Virus record (IMG/VR): IMGVR_UViG_3300025872_000278
Location: 1 to 25,350 of that record
Source of the DNA: a virus
Strand: one strand, 5' to 3'
DNA: 25,350 bases
Under the pieces are notes generated by a model that did not search any database, was not told where the DNA came from, and saw only the letters and a program-made list of their open reading frames with translations. Shown one piece after another: positions 288 through 22,164 of this stretch (the stretch's first letter is position 1; every line of letters begins with the position of its first letter). The translations under genes were made by a program, and so were the position numbers.

Positions 288-1248
288 ATGAAAACCGTCA
301 TCATCGTCGAAAAGTCCAGCCAGGCGCGGGACCTCCGGGCGGCAATCGGAAGCCACTTCGGGGAAATCCTGCCTGCGGAAGGCCACCTTAGCCGAAGTGG
401 AAGATGGCGCAGATGGCGCTGAAACGCTCCCACCCATGAAGGATGGCGAGACCGCAACCCTCAGCGATCCAAAGGTCAGTGCCTGCACCACCGAGCCGCC
501 GCCGCGCTACAATGAAGGCACGCTGATCGATGCGATGCAGAATGCCTGGAGGTTCGTCGATGACCCGGTGCTCCGTGACCGCCTGAAGGAGGCGAAGGGC
601 ATCGGCACGCCTGCCACTCGCGCCGAGATCATCAAGGGCCTGAAAGCCCAGAACATGCTTGCCGCATCGGGAAAGCTGGTCGTGCCCACGGCATCGGGGC
701 TGAAACTCTACGAACTTCTCGCGAAGGCGGCACCGAGCCTCGTGGATCCCGGCACCACCGCCCAGTGGGAGATGCGGCTTGATGAGGTGGTGCTTGGAGA
801 GAGCGACTTCCGCGCGGTGATTGATGGTATCGCAAGCAGCGCCGCCGATCTGATCTCCCGCCTGACGCAGCAGACGGGCGTCAAGGTGGATCTCGCGCCT
901 GCCTCACAGAGGCAGCGTGCAGGCAGGAGCCGCAGGTCTCCTGCAAGTCCAACCGCCACTTCCAGGAGGCGGAGACGCGGACCGGCACAAGCTTCCGAAA
1001 ATCCGATCACCGATGGACTCGGCCCCGACTCACGGGAGCAAATCCCGCCAGGGGCTGCCCAGCCTCAGCCCGCACGCGGAAATGCGAGGAAGCCCACACC
1101 GCGCATGCTAGCGTTTGCACGGGCGCTGGCTAGAAAGAACGCGATCCTCCTGCCCCGAGCCTGCGAACAGAGCTTCGATCACTGCCGCGCCTTCATAAAA
1201 CAGCACACCGGCGACAACGGGTTCAAAGTCAGGAACAGCGAGCGATGA
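288..1248 (+). pseudogene. topB: DNA topoisomerase III, internally deleted
   Basis: Two pieces of one gene are joined with most of the middle missing. From the ATG at 288 about 34 codons encode the start of the Toprim domain (MKTVIIVEKSSQARD, then ending PAEGHL). At about 390-400 the reading jumps to another frame (ORF 397-1248), which matches the C-terminal third of alphaproteobacterial topoisomerase III, with S-D-P-K-V, RYNEGTLIDAMQNAW and KEAKGIGTPATRAEIIKG, then a basic linker and a tail F-A-R-A-L-A-R-K-N. Roughly 400 residues, including the catalytic Tyr region, are gone and the junction is out of frame, so no active enzyme can be made. TopB of this type is usual in integrative conjugative elements and plasmids of Alphaproteobacteria, so the flank is probably a decayed element. 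An in-frame downstream start could still give a C-terminal fragment. Confidence 0.8.
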
Positions 1249-1324: not shown

Positions 1325-1828
1325 GTGAAGATAGCTGTCGACAGCTATTGGAATGTGACAGAGGCGACAGGCCCTCTCCAACCGGATGCCGTCATATCCA
1401 TCATGGACGTCGCCCACCTCGCCCCATCGCTCTGTCTCGCTCCCGAACGCCATCTGCATCTTGGATTCCACGACATTCAAAAGCCAGAGACAGGGAAGTC
1501 ACCACCTACCCAGGACCAGATTGCCAAGCTGATTGAATTTGCAAAAGATCATCGCAAGTCAGGCGCGCGGCATCTGCTGATCCACTGCATGGCGGGAGTA
1601 AGTCGTTATCCGGCCGCTGCCTGCATTCTCGCCGTTTCCGTCCGCCGCGAAGATCCTGTGAGATCAGCCGTTCAGTTGTTCAGGGCGGCTCCGTTTGCAG
1701 ATCCCAACATGTTGATGATTCGGCATGCGGATGAGTTGGGTGGATGGAAGGGGGCCATGTTATCAGCAGTTCGGTCGGCACAAGAGGTCCTTGCAATCGC
1801 GGGACAGCAACACCCATTCATGATCTGA
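1325..1828 (+). CDS. Tyrosine phosphatase-like protein
   Basis: The 167-aa product starts at GTG; the frame is open back to 1301 but has no better start. It belongs to the small alphaproteobacterial tyrosine-phosphatase-like proteins: an N-terminal V-I-S-I-M-D strand, the L-H-L-G-F-H-D-I segment at about residues 44-51, and the P-loop H-C-M-A-G-V-S-R (CX5R) near residues 87-94. Cys and Arg are the expected nucleophile and phosphate-binding residues. After the Arg the sequence is Tyr-Pro, where relatives usually have Ser or Thr, so catalysis may be altered. No signal peptide or membrane segment is seen, so it is probably cytoplasmic. It lies 76 bp after the broken topB and on the same strand; it belongs to the flank, not to the phage late operon. 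Substrate unknown. Confidence 0.65.
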   Translation: MKIAVDSYWNVTEATGPLQPDAVISIMDVAHLAPSLCLAPERHLHLGFHDIQKPETGKSPPTQDQIAKLIEFAKDHRKSGARHLLIHCMAGVSRYPAAACILAVSVRREDPVRSAVQLFRAAPFADPNMLMIRHADELGGWKGAMLSAVRSAQEVLAIAGQQHPFMI

Positions 1829-3945: not shown

Positions 3946-4138
3946 GCCGGATGTCTCCTGATTGGCGTTGGGCCTTCTCGCGGACCTGGGCGCGCCTGGC
4001 TTCCCAGGAGGCCTTGCCGGCCGTTCTTCCCCTGAGCCACGCGATACCGAGGGCCGCCACCAACGCGCCCGCCAGCACCGCCCAGCCCGAGAGGCGGGAC
4101 CAGGCGGCGCCAAGGATGGAAAGAAGAAGCCCCGTCAC
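3881..4138 (-). CDS. Inner-membrane spanin (Rz-like)
   Basis: The 85-aa protein starts at a GTG that overlaps the endolysin stop (GTGA). An N-terminal membrane segment spans about residues 18-35 (G-W-A-V-L-A-G-A-L-V-A-A-L-G-I-A-W-L), and the rest is a charged helix with K-A-S-W-E-A-R-R and D-R-R-L-D-R-W-M-R-D at the end. This fits an i-spanin with a short coiled periplasmic part. At 85 residues it is much shorter than lambda Rz (about 150), so it must span the periplasm with a short stalk plus its partner. The last 65 bases overlap Rz1 in another frame. Confidence 0.72.
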   Translation of the reverse strand: MTGLLLSILGAAWSRLSGWAVLAGALVAALGIAWLRGRTAGKASWEARRAQVREKAQRQSGDIRHDVQTGSDAALDRRLDRWMRD

Positions 4139-5070
4139 GGCGTCTTCCCGATGCGGAAGTCCTCGATGCGGGCGGCCTTCGCCTTACAAGCCAGCACGAT
4201 GACGATGAGAAAGATCACCGCCCCCGCCCATGGCAACAGAGGCATCAGCCAGTCCGAGAGATTAAGCAGTCCGACGGTGCGCTCGGTCACGTCCTTCGCG
4301 CGCTCGGCCGTTTCCACGGCAGGAGCGATGACGGAAGCCGCAGCCCCCGCCATGCCCACGACGCCGGTGACGATCTGCGCATCCGCAGCCTTTACGATCC
4401 GCGAGCCCTCGGGCTTGCCGCCAGCACGCTCCCGCGACACTTCTCGGGGCTTCGCCTTCTGCAGGGCCTCCACGAGAACGGGATCCACATCCGGGCTGAG
4501 ACCCAGCCCGTTGTCGGCGCGGAACGCCAGCACGGCGGCCCGGGTCCGAGGACCGTAACGCCCGTCCACAATGCCGACCTCGAAATACCCCAGATCCTTC
4601 AGCTGCTGCTGGACGACCTTCATCTCCGGGCGCTGGGGAGCATCCGAACGCAGCGGCCGCCGGATGCCGAGCAGGCGCGATTTGGCATACCGCGCAACGG
4701 TGACGCCATCCGACTGGTTGCCCCCCAGCACCTCGATCTGTGAGCCCGTGGCCTTGAGGAAGAAGGCGACATGGCCCTGCGTCGTGCTGGAGCCGCGCGT
4801 GAAGATCACGACATCGCCTTCTCGCGCCTGCTCAATGCCTGGAACCTTCTCGCCCCAGGTGAGGTAAGAGCGCGCATTGAGCTTGCGGGTGGACGAGACC
4901 CCTGCCTTCTCGAGGCAATGCCCGACGAAGGCGGCGCACCAGGCAACCTCATCATGCTCGACCCAGTCATGGCCGACGGTGCGGTACATCTCCATGACCT
5001 TCGGGTTGTCGGCGGAGCCCTTGATCTCTTTCGTGCCGAGATAGCTGCGGGCGATAGTCATGTGGTTCAT
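4135..5070 (-). CDS. Endolysin: Cys/His hydrolase, PG-binding domain, C-terminal membrane anchor
   Basis: The 311-aa protein starts at 5070, right after a strong AAGGAGG site; a longer frame to 5115 has no such site. Residues 1-140 match the TIGR02594 NlpC/P60-like family: Cys45 in V-A-W-C-A-A-F, His100 in Q-G-H-V-A-F-F, and Asn118 in G-G-N-Q as the likely catalytic set. Residues about 150-203 are a peptidoglycan-binding domain (V-Q-Q-Q-L-K-D-L-G-Y-F, then D-G-R-Y-G-P-R-T-R-A-A-V). The C-terminus holds a moderately hydrophobic stretch at 232-250 and a clear membrane segment at about 278-296, ending in basic residues. No N-terminal signal is seen. It cuts cell-wall peptides during lysis. The C-terminal anchor is unusual for a phage lysin and may replace or assist a holin. 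Confidence 0.8.
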   Translation of the reverse strand: MNHMTIARSYLGTKEIKGSADNPKVMEMYRTVGHDWVEHDEVAWCAAFVGHCLEKAGVSSTRKLNARSYLTWGEKVPGIEQAREGDVVIFTRGSSTTQGHVAFFLKATGSQIEVLGGNQSDGVTVARYAKSRLLGIRRPLRSDAPQRPEMKVVQQQLKDLGYFEVGIVDGRYGPRTRAAVLAFRADNGLGLSPDVDPVLVEALQKAKPREVSRERAGGKPEGSRIVKAADAQIVTGVVGMAGAAASVIAPAVETAERAKDVTERTVGLLNLSDWLMPLLPWAGAVIFLIVIVLACKAKAARIEDFRIGKTP

Positions 5071-5145
5071 GGGCAAAAGCCTCCTTCTTGCCAGAAGGCC
5101 CGTGGCCTTCGGCATTGGTTGGGTCTGGAGATGTGAGAGGGGTGG

Positions 5146-5488: not shown

Positions 5489-6496
5489 TTACGTATCGGA
5501 CGAAGCACCCGGCCCGGGCTGCTTCAAGCTGAGTTGCGTGACGAAGCCCCCGCCCCGCGAATAATTGTGCGTGACGCTTTCGATGCGGTACGGACCATCG
5601 ACGCCGGGGCGTGCACCCGTGACGATGCAGAGCCCGTCCGGAATGGCGGAGGTGTTGCCCTCGATGGTGACGCTGCCTTCGCCCGCGTCGCGTTCCGAGG
5701 TCGCCTTGTCGGAGACGGTCTGCTGATTAGCCTCATCTACATCAGGCTTCGCGTAGCGATGGTCGTGCCGGGCATCGACGGTGAGATAGGTGTCCTCCTC
5801 CGCCTCCTGCCATTCGGCCCTCCGGGAATCGTACCAGCGGGCCCGCACTTTCGAATACTGCGCCCGCCCGAGCGAGGGCGAGATGTCCCAGCCGTGGAGG
5901 TTACGTCCCCAGGCTGCGATGACCGCCACCGTGTAGGTCCCACCCCGCTTCGACATGATGGCGCATGTGCCCTGGATGCGGAAATTGCCGCCGATCTCGC
6001 GGGCCAGCCTCTCCCCCATGTGGATGAAGCTCTCGTCCCGCATCTCGAAATATCTGCGGGTGATCGCGGCAAGCGACGGGTCGATCTCGACGTCCGCAAC
6101 GCCGGCGGTTCTGCCCGCCACCTTCAGGATGTCAGCGACCGTGCTGTCGTCGAAATGCCGCTGCTGGCCTTCCTTCGGCTTCTTCGTAGTATCCATGCCC
6201 TTGGCGGAGATCGACAGCGTGCGTCCGCTGCCACGCGAGCCCGATGACCTCACCTCGTCCACCGTGCCGGTGAACACGACGCGCACCCCCTCGCCTTCCC
6301 AGCCCACCGCCACGACGACGGGGGCGCCGATCCGGGGGAGAACGATGCGGCCGCCAGTGTCGTCAATCTCGAGACTGGCCGTGTCGGAATGGGTGCCGAC
6401 ATTGTCGGAGACGGTGAGCGAGATCAGCACGGGCATGAGCGTCGTGGTGATGTTGATGCCCGCCACCGTCACCATGAACACCGCGCGCTTCGACAT
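5489..6496 (-). CDS. D: Baseplate hub protein gpD (late control protein family)
   Basis: The 335-aa product matches the P2 gpD family, the central hub at the tail tip (equivalent to T4 gp27). Features seen: an N-terminal beta domain ending in V-V-F-T-G-T-V-D-E-V, the S-I-S-A-K-G-M-D segment at about residues 95-102 followed by the Lys-rich K-K-P-K-E-G, the D-D-S-T-V-A-D-I-L helix, and a C-terminal part with D-A-R-H-D-H-R-Y and G-P-Y-R-I-E-S-V-T-H-N-Y-S-R-G-G-G-F-V-T. The length is near P2 gpD (387). It follows gpX after six bases, as in P2 (T-U-X-D), and would trimerise below the spike gpV. Confidence 0.9.
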   Translation of the reverse strand: MSKRAVFMVTVAGINITTTLMPVLISLTVSDNVGTHSDTASLEIDDTGGRIVLPRIGAPVVVAVGWEGEGVRVVFTGTVDEVRSSGSRGSGRTLSISAKGMDTTKKPKEGQQRHFDDSTVADILKVAGRTAGVADVEIDPSLAAITRRYFEMRDESFIHMGERLAREIGGNFRIQGTCAIMSKRGGTYTVAVIAAWGRNLHGWDISPSLGRAQYSKVRARWYDSRRAEWQEAEEDTYLTVDARHDHRYAKPDVDEANQQTVSDKATSERDAGEGSVTIEGNTSAIPDGLCIVTGARPGVDGPYRIESVTHNYSRGGGFVTQLSLKQPGPGASSDT

Positions 6497-6861: not shown

Positions 6862-7311
6862 ATGACGGATCGCCGAAACCTGGTTCTTGGCCTCGCAGCC
6901 GGAATGTCCGGGCTTGCAGCCCTGTCGCAGGCTGCAGGGGCGCAAGCGGCGATTTCGGACGCCGAGGCCCAGGGAGCCATCGACAGCTTTCTCGAGGCCG
7001 TATTCTCGGGGGACCCAGCCAAGGTCGACCAGATGCTGGCACCCGAATTCCAGATCCTGCGCTCGGACGGGAAGAGCGATGACAAGGTGAGCTATCTCGG
7101 GGCCTTGCCCAAGCACAAGGCGCGTCCCGCGACCAGCGCCCTTAAGGTCACGGGCCATGGCAGCGTCATCGTGACGACCTATTCCATCAAGACCGATCAG
7201 ACGATCGGCGGCCAGCCCGTCGAAGCCGTCTCGCCCCGCCTGTCGGTCTTCCGCAAGGAAGAGGACCGCTGGCTGATCGTAGCGCACGCCAACTTCGCGC
7301 AGATCGGCTGA
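6862..7311 (+). CDS. Exported NTF2/SnoaL-like protein (cargo gene)
   Basis: The 149-aa product starts at 6862 after GGAGAGGGA. It opens with an export signal containing a twin-arginine-like start (M-T-D-R-R-N-L-V-L-G) and an Ala-rich core ending A-G-A-Q-A, so it is probably sent out by Tat or Sec. The mature part has the NTF2/SnoaL (DUF4440-like) pattern: A-I-D-S-F-L-E-A-V-F-S-G-D-P-A-K-V-D, then F-Q-I-L-R-S-D-G, V-T-T-Y-S-I, and W-L-I-V-A-H-A-N-F near the end. Ligand or enzyme activity unknown. It is read against the late operon, between gpU and gpX, and its stop is five bases from that of gpU. A TTGACA at 6776-6781 could be a -35 but no clear -10 follows. It has no place in virion assembly, so I read it as a lysogenic-conversion gene. 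Confidence 0.75.
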   Translation: MTDRRNLVLGLAAGMSGLAALSQAAGAQAAISDAEAQGAIDSFLEAVFSGDPAKVDQMLAPEFQILRSDGKSDDKVSYLGALPKHKARPATSALKVTGHGSVIVTTYSIKTDQTIGGQPVEAVSPRLSVFRKEEDRWLIVAHANFAQIG

Positions 7312-10119: not shown

Positions 10120-10151
10120 CATGCAGTTTCTATGGGAGAACCGGAACCACG

Positions 10152-10826
10152 ATGCCGAGACACCCGCTGATCGCCTTGCTTCTTCTCGCGGCAGCGATCC
10201 TGCCAAAGCCTGCGGCCCTCGGACAGGACTTCATCCCCCCGGAAGCTCTCTCGCCGGATCCTGGCGCGGCATATGCCGTGAAGGATGTCGCCGCGAATGA
10301 CAGCCTGAATGTCAGGTCCCTGCCCGGGACCCGGTCCGACATGGTCACGCGCCTGCCGCACGATGCGCGTGGCATTCTCGTCACCGGCAAAAGGATGACG
10401 GAAGGCTCGTCGGTCTGGTGGGAGGTGATCACGACGGGCGTGCAAGGCAGAACCGGATGGGTCAATCACCGCTATCTGGCGGTTGAACCGGACGGCGTTC
10501 AATCAAGCTATCCTCTCCAGTGCGGGGGCACGGAGCCCTTCTGGTCGCTGAGGCTGGAAGACAGTCATGCAGCCTATTCCGACCCCGAAACCGAAACGGT
10601 CACGCTGTCCGCCAGCGGCTGGATGAGATCCCGCAACAGCCCAGGCGTCTTTGCCATTCAGTTGCGCAGTGAAGACGACGATCCAGGTACCGATGGCTAC
10701 GCAACCATCGACCGGACCGCATGCAGCGACGGCATGTCCGATTTCGAGTATCCCTTCGAGGCCACGGTCATCCTGCCGGACCAGACCGTTCTCGACGGCT
10801 GCTGCAGCAGGCTGGCAGTGCCCTGA
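10152..10826 (+). CDS. Exported SH3-domain / GTEPFW protein (cargo gene)
   Basis: The 224-aa protein opens with a Sec signal (L-I-A-L-L-L-L-A-A-A-I-L) ending near A-L-G-Q. Residues about 41-110 form a bacterial SH3 domain (V-A-A-N-D-S-L-N-V-R-S-L-P-G, then G-W-V-N-H-R-Y-L). From 124 comes a second domain starting C-G-G-T-E-P-F-W-S-L, known from COG3650-like periplasmic proteins of Alphaproteobacteria, with Cys at 124, 191, 217 and 218 that could form disulfides. The frame opens further upstream but the signal supports the start at 10152. It sits against the late operon between E' and T, its stop three bases from that of E', and has its own promoter. A cell-envelope role in the lysogen is inferred; exact function unknown. 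Confidence 0.75.
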   Translation: MPRHPLIALLLLAAAILPKPAALGQDFIPPEALSPDPGAAYAVKDVAANDSLNVRSLPGTRSDMVTRLPHDARGILVTGKRMTEGSSVWWEVITTGVQGRTGWVNHRYLAVEPDGVQSSYPLQCGGTEPFWSLRLEDSHAAYSDPETETVTLSASGWMRSRNSPGVFAIQLRSEDDDPGTDGYATIDRTACSDGMSDFEYPFEATVILPDQTVLDGCCSRLAVP

Positions 10827-21677: not shown

Positions 21678-21950
21678 ATGAAGGTCGAATTCGATGCCGC
21701 CAAGCGGACCGGAACCCTCGAGCAGCGGGGTCTGGACATGGCGCGGGCCGGCGAGGTGTTCGACGGCGCCTCGCTGACGATCGAAGACGACCGGATGGAC
21801 TATGGTGAAACCCGGTACATCACGATCGGGTTTCTGGATGAGAGAATGGTGGTCCTCGTCTGGACCCCGCGCGGTGACGTTCATCGCATCATCAGCATGA
21901 GGAAGGCCAATGACCGCGAAAAAGCCATCTACGAACCCCGCTTTCGATGA
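21678..21950 (+). CDS. brnT: BrnT family ribonuclease toxin
   Basis: The 90-aa protein fits BrnT (RelE-like fold RNase toxins, about 90 aa): an opening V-E-F-D-A-A-K-R, then the R-G-L-D-M-A-R-A-G-E-V-F-D segment, T-I-E-D-D-R-M-D-Y-G-E-T-R-Y-I-T-I-G-F-L-D, V-L-V-W-T-P-R-G, and R-I-I-S-M-R-K-A-N-D-R-E-K at the end. These cover the conserved BrnT blocks. It would cut RNA and slow growth when free. brnA overlaps its end by 41 bases, giving the usual toxin-first order. The pair is antisense to the tail operon between gpV and the 77-aa gene and probably stabilises the prophage or guards against other phages. Confidence 0.9.
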   Translation: MKVEFDAAKRTGTLEQRGLDMARAGEVFDGASLTIEDDRMDYGETRYITIGFLDERMVVLVWTPRGDVHRIISMRKANDREKAIYEPRFR

Positions 21951-22164
21951 GGACGCGCCGGACCTGTCGTCTCCGGACTGGCAGAAGAAGTTCGCGAAGG
22001 CCACGGTACGTCGCGGACGGCCTCCGCTCGAGGATCCCAAAGTGTCAACGACGATCCGTCTCTCGAAGGATGTGATCGAAAGATTCAAGGCAAGCGGTCC
22101 GGGCTGGCAGACGCGGATCGACGAGGCTCTCCGCGACTGGATCAAGAAGCACGACGCCGCCTGA
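21910..22164 (+). CDS. brnA: BrnA family antitoxin
   Basis: The 84-aa protein is the partner of BrnT. The N-terminal part (D-L-S-S-P-D-W-Q-K-K-F-A) is the flexible toxin-binding region; the C-terminal part is a ribbon-helix-helix DNA-binding domain (V-S-T-T-I-R-L-S-K-D-V-I-E-R-F-K-A-S-G-P, then W-Q-T-R-I-D-E-A-L-R-D-W). It starts inside brnT in another frame, which points to coupled translation. It should neutralise BrnT and repress the operon. Its stop is eight bases from the gpV stop, convergent. Nothing suggests decay. Confidence 0.9.
   Translation: MTAKKPSTNPAFDEDAPDLSSPDWQKKFAKATVRRGRPPLEDPKVSTTIRLSKDVIERFKASGPGWQTRIDEALRDWIKKHDAA

Follow-up and report, generated by a model that had tools for sequence, protein, structure and literature searches.

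Lysis genes of the window

The window (the whole 25,350-nucleotide stretch of viral DNA that was analysed) holds a complete lysis cassette: a candidate holin with one transmembrane (TM) helix, an endolysin, an Rz spanin and an overlapping Rz1 spanin (Table 1). Apart from the membrane tail of its endolysin, the cassette looks like a normal holin/endolysin/spanin set, and the phage or prophage that carries it is probably a tailed one of an alphaproteobacterium. The endolysin reading frame is real: its ATG at 5070 is preceded by AAGGAGG at a spacing of 9 nt. A longer in-frame start is also present at 5115.

Table 1. Positions of the features discussed, in the window unless another locus is named
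Feature	Position	Strand	Remarks
Rz1-like outer-membrane lipoprotein spanin, 66 aa	3745..3945	-	phrog_1275; overlaps Rz in a different frame
Rz-like inner-membrane spanin, 85 aa	3881..4138	-	phrog_1026; GTG start; 4 bp overlap with the endolysin stop
Endolysin, 311 aa	4135..5070	-	TIGR02594 at aa 4-137, PG_binding_1 at aa 147-198, linker, predicted two-helix C-terminal membrane tail, basic C-terminus
Parts of the endolysin tail	helices at about aa 224-251 and 272-295; basic C-terminus at aa 296-311		
C-terminal tail module, last 104 aa of the endolysin	4138..4449	-	common to lysins with other catalytic domains
Candidate holin P0002, 104 aa	5160..5474	-	one N-terminal TM helix (aa 12-30), charged tail after it
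Phage tail protein	5489..6496	-	phrog_52; encoded upstream of the lysis genes
C-terminal part of a DNA topoisomerase	397..1248	+	PF01131
Dual-specificity-phosphatase-like protein	1325..1828	+	weak match, below cut-off
DUF4440 (SnoaL-like) protein	6862..7311	+	Tat-like N-terminus by eye; strand opposite to the lysis genes; possible cargo gene
Protein with signal-like N-terminus	10149..10826	+	weak SH3_3 match below cut-off (E 0.00055); strand opposite to the lysis genes
BrnT toxin/BrnA antitoxin pair	21678..22164	+	PF04365, E 1.7e-22; PF14384, E 9.5e-22; strand opposite to the lysis genes
108-aa two-TM gene	L075 4911..5237; L077 4914..5240; L079 4908..5234		near tail-less lysins

The candidate holin, P0002, lies 89 bp upstream of the endolysin gene. 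There is no Lys or Arg ahead of its TM helix, and K31 and K33 stand behind it, so that an N-out/C-in orientation is predicted; this layout, directly upstream of the endolysin, is like that of class IV holins. P0002 matched no holin family in PHROGs or Pfam, and a tblastn search of phages with it returned nothing; its activity as a holin is something that we infer. Relatives of P0002 were found at 21 loci in viral contigs. Nineteen are on contigs that had already been found through the lysin, and at the other two (L228 and L229) a tailed lysin lies directly downstream.

The endolysin: hydrolase and binding domain

What kind of enzyme does the cassette encode? The N-terminal part of the endolysin matches TIGR02594, an NlpC/P60/CHAP-like model, with 105.8 bits against a cut-off of 70.55, and the PG_binding_1 match behind it has an E-value of 6.5e-10. 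The Pfam NLPC_P60 model scored 17.5, below its cut-off of 23; in PHROGs, the protein matches phrog_1259. Residues C45 and H100 are invariant across 102 aligned sequences, namely that of the window and 101 of the 144 relatives collected. In an AlphaFold2 model built from 102 sequences (mean pLDDT 85.6), the hydrolase and the binding domain are seen together with helices at 224-251, 259-269 and 272-307, with low confidence in the turn between the tail helices (252-258); an earlier model from 15 close sequences (pLDDT 50.3) was too poor for use. When the better model was submitted to Foldseek, the best matches in the PDB were cell-wall hydrolases of the NlpC/P60 type (7cfl_A, 9ubf_A and 4hpe_A), among them the autolysin 7cfl_A with an E-value of 7.3e-5 and a TM-score, by target, of 0.71. 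Judged by sequence and predicted structure, the product of 4135-5070 is an NlpC/P60-type hydrolase with a peptidoglycan-binding domain and a conserved two-helix C-terminal tail. An earlier note on this DNA had described a Cys/His hydrolase and a peptidoglycan-binding domain followed by a C-terminal membrane tail, and that description is borne out here.

The two-helix tail

The hydropathy of the endolysin (Kyte-Doolittle, 19-aa windows) peaks at 233-251 (1.80) and at 275-293 (2.57), close to the weaker (232-250) and strong (278-296) segments proposed in the earlier note; no other separate window of this protein reaches 1.0. Among 5000 residue shuffles of the protein, a value of 2.57 was attained somewhere in 22 and a value of 1.80 in 1135. 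Thus, helix 2 is well beyond chance, whereas helix 1, by hydropathy alone, is not. We compared the window protein with 72 relatives from a class of 300-322 aa (73 sequences in all). Helix 2 has a hydropathy of at least 1.6 in 71 of these; helix 1 reaches 1.0 in 72 but 1.6 in only 22. Conservation over the 73 sequences supports both predicted tail helices, the first of them weak and rich in Gly, Ala, Ser and Thr (0.54 of residues), the second strongly hydrophobic.

Across the 73 sequences, the net charge is positive before helix 1 in 55, negative in the loop in 69 and positive after helix 2 in 71; by the positive-inside rule, this pattern predicts a hairpin whose two ends lie in the cytoplasm. 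The catalytic domain would then be on the cytoplasmic side of the membrane, as the earlier note had supposed. At the other end of the protein, the first 60 residues of the 73 sequences have a hydropathy of at most 1.70 (mean 0.84), and the window endolysin has by hydropathy no N-terminal hydrophobic segment such as would mark an N-terminal signal-anchor-release (SAR) endolysin.

The extreme C-terminus is as well conserved as the enzyme: over 400 random pairs, mean identity is 0.66 in the last 16 residues of the tail and 0.65 in the catalytic domain. Some of this conservation may come from the overlapping start of Rz and its ribosome-binding site. A nested holin, with the tail made as a free protein from an internal start, was considered and rejected, as start codons are present in at most 44% of the 73 sequences at any alignment position from 147 to 232 (frequencies of 0.44 at column 150, 0.40 at 153, 0.33 at 165, 0.32 at 197 and 0.30 at 226).

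Relatives of the lysin and their holin partners

Relatives of the lysin were gathered as 19 viral-contig loci found by patterns, then, with a wider alignment, as the best 80 of 458 matches in genome contigs and, from viral contigs, the best 80 of 586. The survey comprised 169 loci, 72 of which, among the matches listed, form a full-length class with the tail; the organisms of this class include Aestuariivirga, Bauldia and many Roseobacteraceae and Paracoccaceae. On the basis of length and hydropathy, 26 of the 169 loci, a mixed set, were assigned a shorter "B" tail. A further 53 lack any hydrophobic window at the C-terminus, and not all of these are endolysins. Five incomplete sequences (L016-L020) were excluded from the survey. 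Outside the 72-locus class were also placed L042 (frame broken), L109 (a 335-aa frame with no tail helix), L068 and L114 (both cut), and L057, L065 and L070, which are partial matches, though their tails match the tail profile described below. One translation, at L032 3615-3923, was in the wrong frame and was disregarded. The neighbours of the endolysin recur: both Rz and Rz1 were detected at 52 of the 64 class loci having at least 600 bp downstream, and of the 68 with enough flank, 32 encode a homologue of the phrog_52 tail protein in the 1500 bp upstream of the lysin.

Does the tail require one particular holin? The gene in the holin slot was typed with profiles built from P0002 and from a LydA-type seed (PF16083, E 8.2e-18) and run on all ORFs; these searches replaced surveys of upstream genes by hydropathy only, which were noisy in GC-rich DNA. 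The assignment to LydA rests on PF16083 matches of two members (E 8.2e-18 and 3.9e-17). Among the matches listed, the 72 class loci divide into 29 with the P0002 family, 33 with the LydA family and 10 with neither; none has both. In 28 of the 29 P0002-type loci and 24 of the 33 LydA-type loci, no more than 200 bp separate the end of the slot gene from the lysin, and in the other nine of the latter the LydA gene is not adjacent, lying 403-992 bp upstream. Two of the loci with neither family (L083 and L111) have a different single-TM ORF upstream.

On a tree of the enzyme part of the lysins, a quick one without bootstrap, the partner label needs four changes, two of them forced by starred branches. 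The holin partner has thus been exchanged, and the tail was kept. It gives the impression of a general tether, neither an obligate partner of P0002 nor a replacement for a holin. The earlier note had raised the possibility of a fused holin-like release or a pinholin-dependent one, with the 104-aa protein as a partner to be tried. A strict need for that protein is unlikely, given the 33 of 72 loci that keep the tail and have a LydA-type gene instead; release by a pinholin has been proposed in published work, discussed below.

The tail as a module on several enzyme families

We then considered whether the tail belongs to any named family. Searched alone against PHROGs and Pfam, none of 36 tails matched a family at E<=0.01, holin families included. 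A profile (HMM) of the class tails matched 76 of the 9336 ORFs at 196 loci at E<=1e-3; all 76 are lysins, and the same profile had no match among the reversed ORFs. A free-standing tail gene, as might arise by gene fission, was sought among these 9336 ORFs of lysin loci and their flanks and rejected, none being found. In four whole genomes, all seven tail matches fall within open frames of at least 326 aa.

With E-values scaled to the same database size, the profile also matched proteins of Mae-JY30 (5.5e-18), S-ESS1 (1.8e-12), EBPR podovirus 2 (gp34, 6.5e-10), ctOK67 (4.6e-8), RcZahn (gp45, 3.5e-7) and BDU-MI-1 (2.2e-6). In Synechococcus virus S-ESS1, Rhodobacter phage RcZahn, Bradyrhizobium phage BDU-MI-1 and isolate ctOK67 (27.6-47.1 bits), the tail follows PG_binding_1 as it does in the window, and the catalytic domains ahead of it are unrelated to that of the window: by Pfam, a PF11860 muramidase in the first three and a PF13539 (M15) peptidase in ctOK67, which is recorded as an N-acetylmuramidase. 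In tblastn searches of phages with tails only, the tails of the window and of L060 returned nothing, and that of L078 returned six records, which are the muramidase and M15 cases. A tail-profile search of 385 genomes gave one match, the seed genome itself; in many of these genomes only 12 candidates were scored, and the result is hence no sign of rarity.

More distant tails were compared as profiles. The class tail against the B tail scored 29.9 and the B tail against that of Chivirus 29.5, and neither score was attained in 100 column shuffles; the direct score of the class tail against the Chivirus tail was weak (24.2), being attained by 2 of 100 shuffles in local and 1 of 100 in global comparison. 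By these profile and domain matches, the tail is a specific, so far unnamed module carried by three catalytic kinds: NlpC/P60, PF11860 muramidase and M15 peptidase. The catalytic domain ahead of it is exchangeable.

Relatives without the tail

Three syntenic loci that are related to one another (L075, L077 and L079) keep the LydA-type holin and the upstream phage tail gene, and their lysins, of 163-164 aa, are too short to include the tail and a PG-binding domain. Profile searches detected neither Rz nor Rz1 at these three loci. Each of the three carries a 108-aa gene with two TM helices (Table 1) that is absent from the 193 other loci searched; the L075 copy matched nothing in PHROGs or Pfam. 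This association is suggestive only. At L075, a nuclease-like gene (4422-4895; phrog_452, with SNase just under its cut-off) follows the tail-less lysin, and L077 and L079 have similar ORFs in the corresponding position. Elsewhere, at L171, a tail-less TIGR02594 lysin adjoins a lambda-type holin (PF05106).

How the tethered enzyme might reach the cell wall

The predicted topology provokes a question: how would a folded enzyme, tethered on the inside, reach the wall? We lean, at slightly better than even odds, to a membrane-tethered endolysin whose C-terminal anchor is a hairpin ending in the cytoplasm, triggered by a separate and interchangeable holin and having an exchangeable catalytic domain. 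The tail would insert with both ends in the cytoplasm, and the enzyme would presumably wait at the inner face of the inner membrane. The separately encoded holin would then trigger, opening or depolarising the membrane, and the tethered enzyme would reach the wall, after which Rz and Rz1 would complete lysis. The tail itself would position the enzyme at the membrane and perhaps weaken the membrane; such a contribution would be independent of any one partner, so that the type of holin beside it can change.

Published work on two other C-terminally anchored lysins bears on this mechanism from both sides. M4Lys is reported to lyse E. coli when over-expressed alone, without a holin and unaffected by a Sec inhibitor; lysis was lost when the tail was removed, and the TM domain (TMD) alone was bacteriostatic (PMC7143992). 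LysAP is likewise described as lysing E. coli on over-expression without a holin and as needing its C-terminal TM to do so; azide delayed this lysis, which the authors read as Sec export, and they modelled its partner HolAP as a probable pinholin (PMC8879335). The loss of lysis upon tail removal in both cases supports the tethered, holin-triggered enzyme. Lysis without a holin, on the other hand, means that the tail may give access by itself, which argues against it. Other points against this mechanism are the opposite orientation of M4Lys, predicted by its authors to be periplasmic from a single TM (PMC7143992), the azide delay of LysAP, the hydropathy of helix 1, which by itself is not beyond chance, the 10 of 72 loci with neither holin and the 9 of 33 LydA genes that are not adjacent.

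The strongest competitor, although we judge it unlikely, is that the tail is itself a holin-like hairpin; endolysin and hole-former would be fused, and the separate holin would only set the time. With its weak, Gly/Ala-rich helix, its strong one and both ends predicted inside, the tail would resemble class II holins and pinholins; its layout and charges fit this idea. So do the lysis of E. coli by full-length M4Lys or LysAP alone and not by their TMD-deleted forms, the bacteriostatic TMD, and the extra two-TM gene of the three tail-less loci. Against it stand the absence of any family match for the 36 tails, the confinement of the tail to long lysin frames with no free-standing gene, the lack of a conserved internal start ahead of helix 1, and a separate holin candidate kept at 62 of the 72 class loci. 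The broader version, which we hold to be just as doubtful, would make the tail a mobile two-helix module that turns unrelated hydrolases (NlpC/P60, PF11860, M15 and perhaps the PHA02564 type of Chivirus) into holin-like endolysins that breach the inner membrane themselves. If this were true, it would be a general route of lysis with hole-forming and wall-cutting in one chain, and the interchangeable single-TM or LydA holin would merely time the event.

Less probable again is a C-terminal counterpart of the SAR endolysins, in which the enzyme would be exported and then tethered in the periplasm through its tail, to be released when a pinholin collapses the membrane potential. SAR helices are rich in Gly, Ala, Ser and Thr, as helix 1 is. 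The pinholin model for HolAP and the azide-delayed lysis of LysAP speak for such an arrangement, as do a like speculation on SAR-like tethering and pinholins by the authors of the Enc34 study (PMC8943055) and phage P1, where the LydA holin is reported to accompany a SAR endolysin (PMC9025707). From the P1 case it follows that a LydA-type partner alone is no argument against a released tether; the mode of release is left unsettled by the LydA family. The flanking charges, however, predict that the enzyme is inside, the window protein lacks an N-terminal hydrophobic segment, and M4Lys lysis was reportedly not blocked by a Sec inhibitor. The LydA family also occurs beside the tail-less relatives; if the latter are soluble enzymes, a pinholin could be of no use to them.

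Might the tail instead be a passive anchor of minor value, with a standard hole-forming holin being enough and the enzyme equally good without it? The three syntenic loci whose lysins lack the tail and which keep the same LydA-type holin, and the tail-less L171 lysin beside its lambda-type holin, would suit this view. We nonetheless consider it quite improbable: 72 class loci retain the tail, conservation of its last 16 residues matches that of the catalytic domain (perhaps partly through the Rz overlap), and it was required in M4Lys and LysAP by the published accounts. Finally, a virion-associated or tail lysozyme would fit the best PHROG for the catalytic domain (baseplate hub/tail lysozyme), the commonness of such domains in baseplate hub lysozymes and the phage tail protein gene just upstream, but the adjacent holin-slot gene, the overlapping Rz/Rz1 and the membrane tail make it highly implausible.

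Comparison with known lysins

The earlier note took known membrane-bound lysins to be anchored at the N-terminus, a view that is now outdated. Endolysins with C-terminal TM segments have been published for Siskin (PMC6498227), Enc34 (PMC8943055), M4Lys (PMC7143992) and LysAP (PMC8879335); they are a kind already known, and the feature in the window is real. New, as far as our literature search goes, are the tail on an NlpC/P60 domain, the occurrence of one tail in several families of catalytic domain and a holin slot whose gene is interchangeable: among the open-access papers listed by that search, none describes the tail on NlpC/P60, PF11860 or M15 enzymes in its title or the abstract shown. 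The Enc34 paper states that the C-terminal TM endolysin is apparently limited to a Chivirus clade and some related viruses (PMC8943055); the architecture now extends to several alphaproteobacterial families and to phages whose hosts are different, and it involves at least three families of catalytic domain. The authors of the Enc34 (PMC8943055) and LysAP (PMC8879335) studies both leave open the route of the tethered enzyme to the wall. The loci described here offer natural comparisons on this very point: tail with single-TM holin, tail with LydA, and LydA with no tail.

Several lysins resemble that of the window in the enzyme itself. Those of EBPR podovirus 2 (gp34), Microcystis phage Mae-JY30 and Roseobacter phage CRP-403 have a homologous catalytic domain and a C-terminal hydrophobic tail, although that of CRP-403 has no PG-binding domain and a short tail of the B type. 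In EBPR podovirus 2, gp36, two genes past the lysin, is an Rz homologue (phrog_1026); Mae-JY30 and CRP-403 have Rz-like genes by eye only. By eye, a single-TM protein is encoded upstream in EBPR podovirus 2 and also in CRP-403, there at a distance of one more gene; by eye again, none was seen upstream in Mae-JY30, which has a C-terminal-TM protein downstream. N-terminal SAR endolysins such as P1 Lyz and phage 21 R are likewise membrane-tethered enzymes awaiting a trigger; the window protein differs from them in having no N-terminal hydrophobic segment.

Other lysins resemble it in the anchor. LysAP of Acidovorax phage AP1 is described as requiring its C-terminal TM for lysis and as having its partner holin, HolAP, in the adjacent gene; it differs from the window lysin in its GH24 lysozyme domain and single predicted TM (PMC8879335). 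The tails of Siskin, Enc34 and M4Lys, from Chivirus and its relatives, are linked to that of the window endolysin through the intermediate family in the profile comparison, the direct match being weak. Full-length Enc34 endolysin reportedly seemed toxic and a truncated form did not (PMC8943055); its catalytic domain is of the PHA02564 type and that of Siskin belongs to phrog_873, as against TIGR02594 with PG_binding_1 in the window. The single-TM holin of Siskin (L180, 40427-40765) belongs to phrog_7686, a family that PHROGs labels, probably in error, as an Rz-like spanin.

A close parallel in gene order is Siskin, which was announced with two C-terminal TM helices, N-in/C-in, and a proposed class IV holin (PMC6498227). 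As in the window, its genes run holin, endolysin, Rz and overlapping Rz1, the holin has one TM in an N-out/C-in orientation, and the spanins fall in the same two PHROGs, phrog_1026 and phrog_1275. The layout annotated for its endolysin is the one that hydropathy, AlphaFold helices and charges predict for the endolysin of the window.
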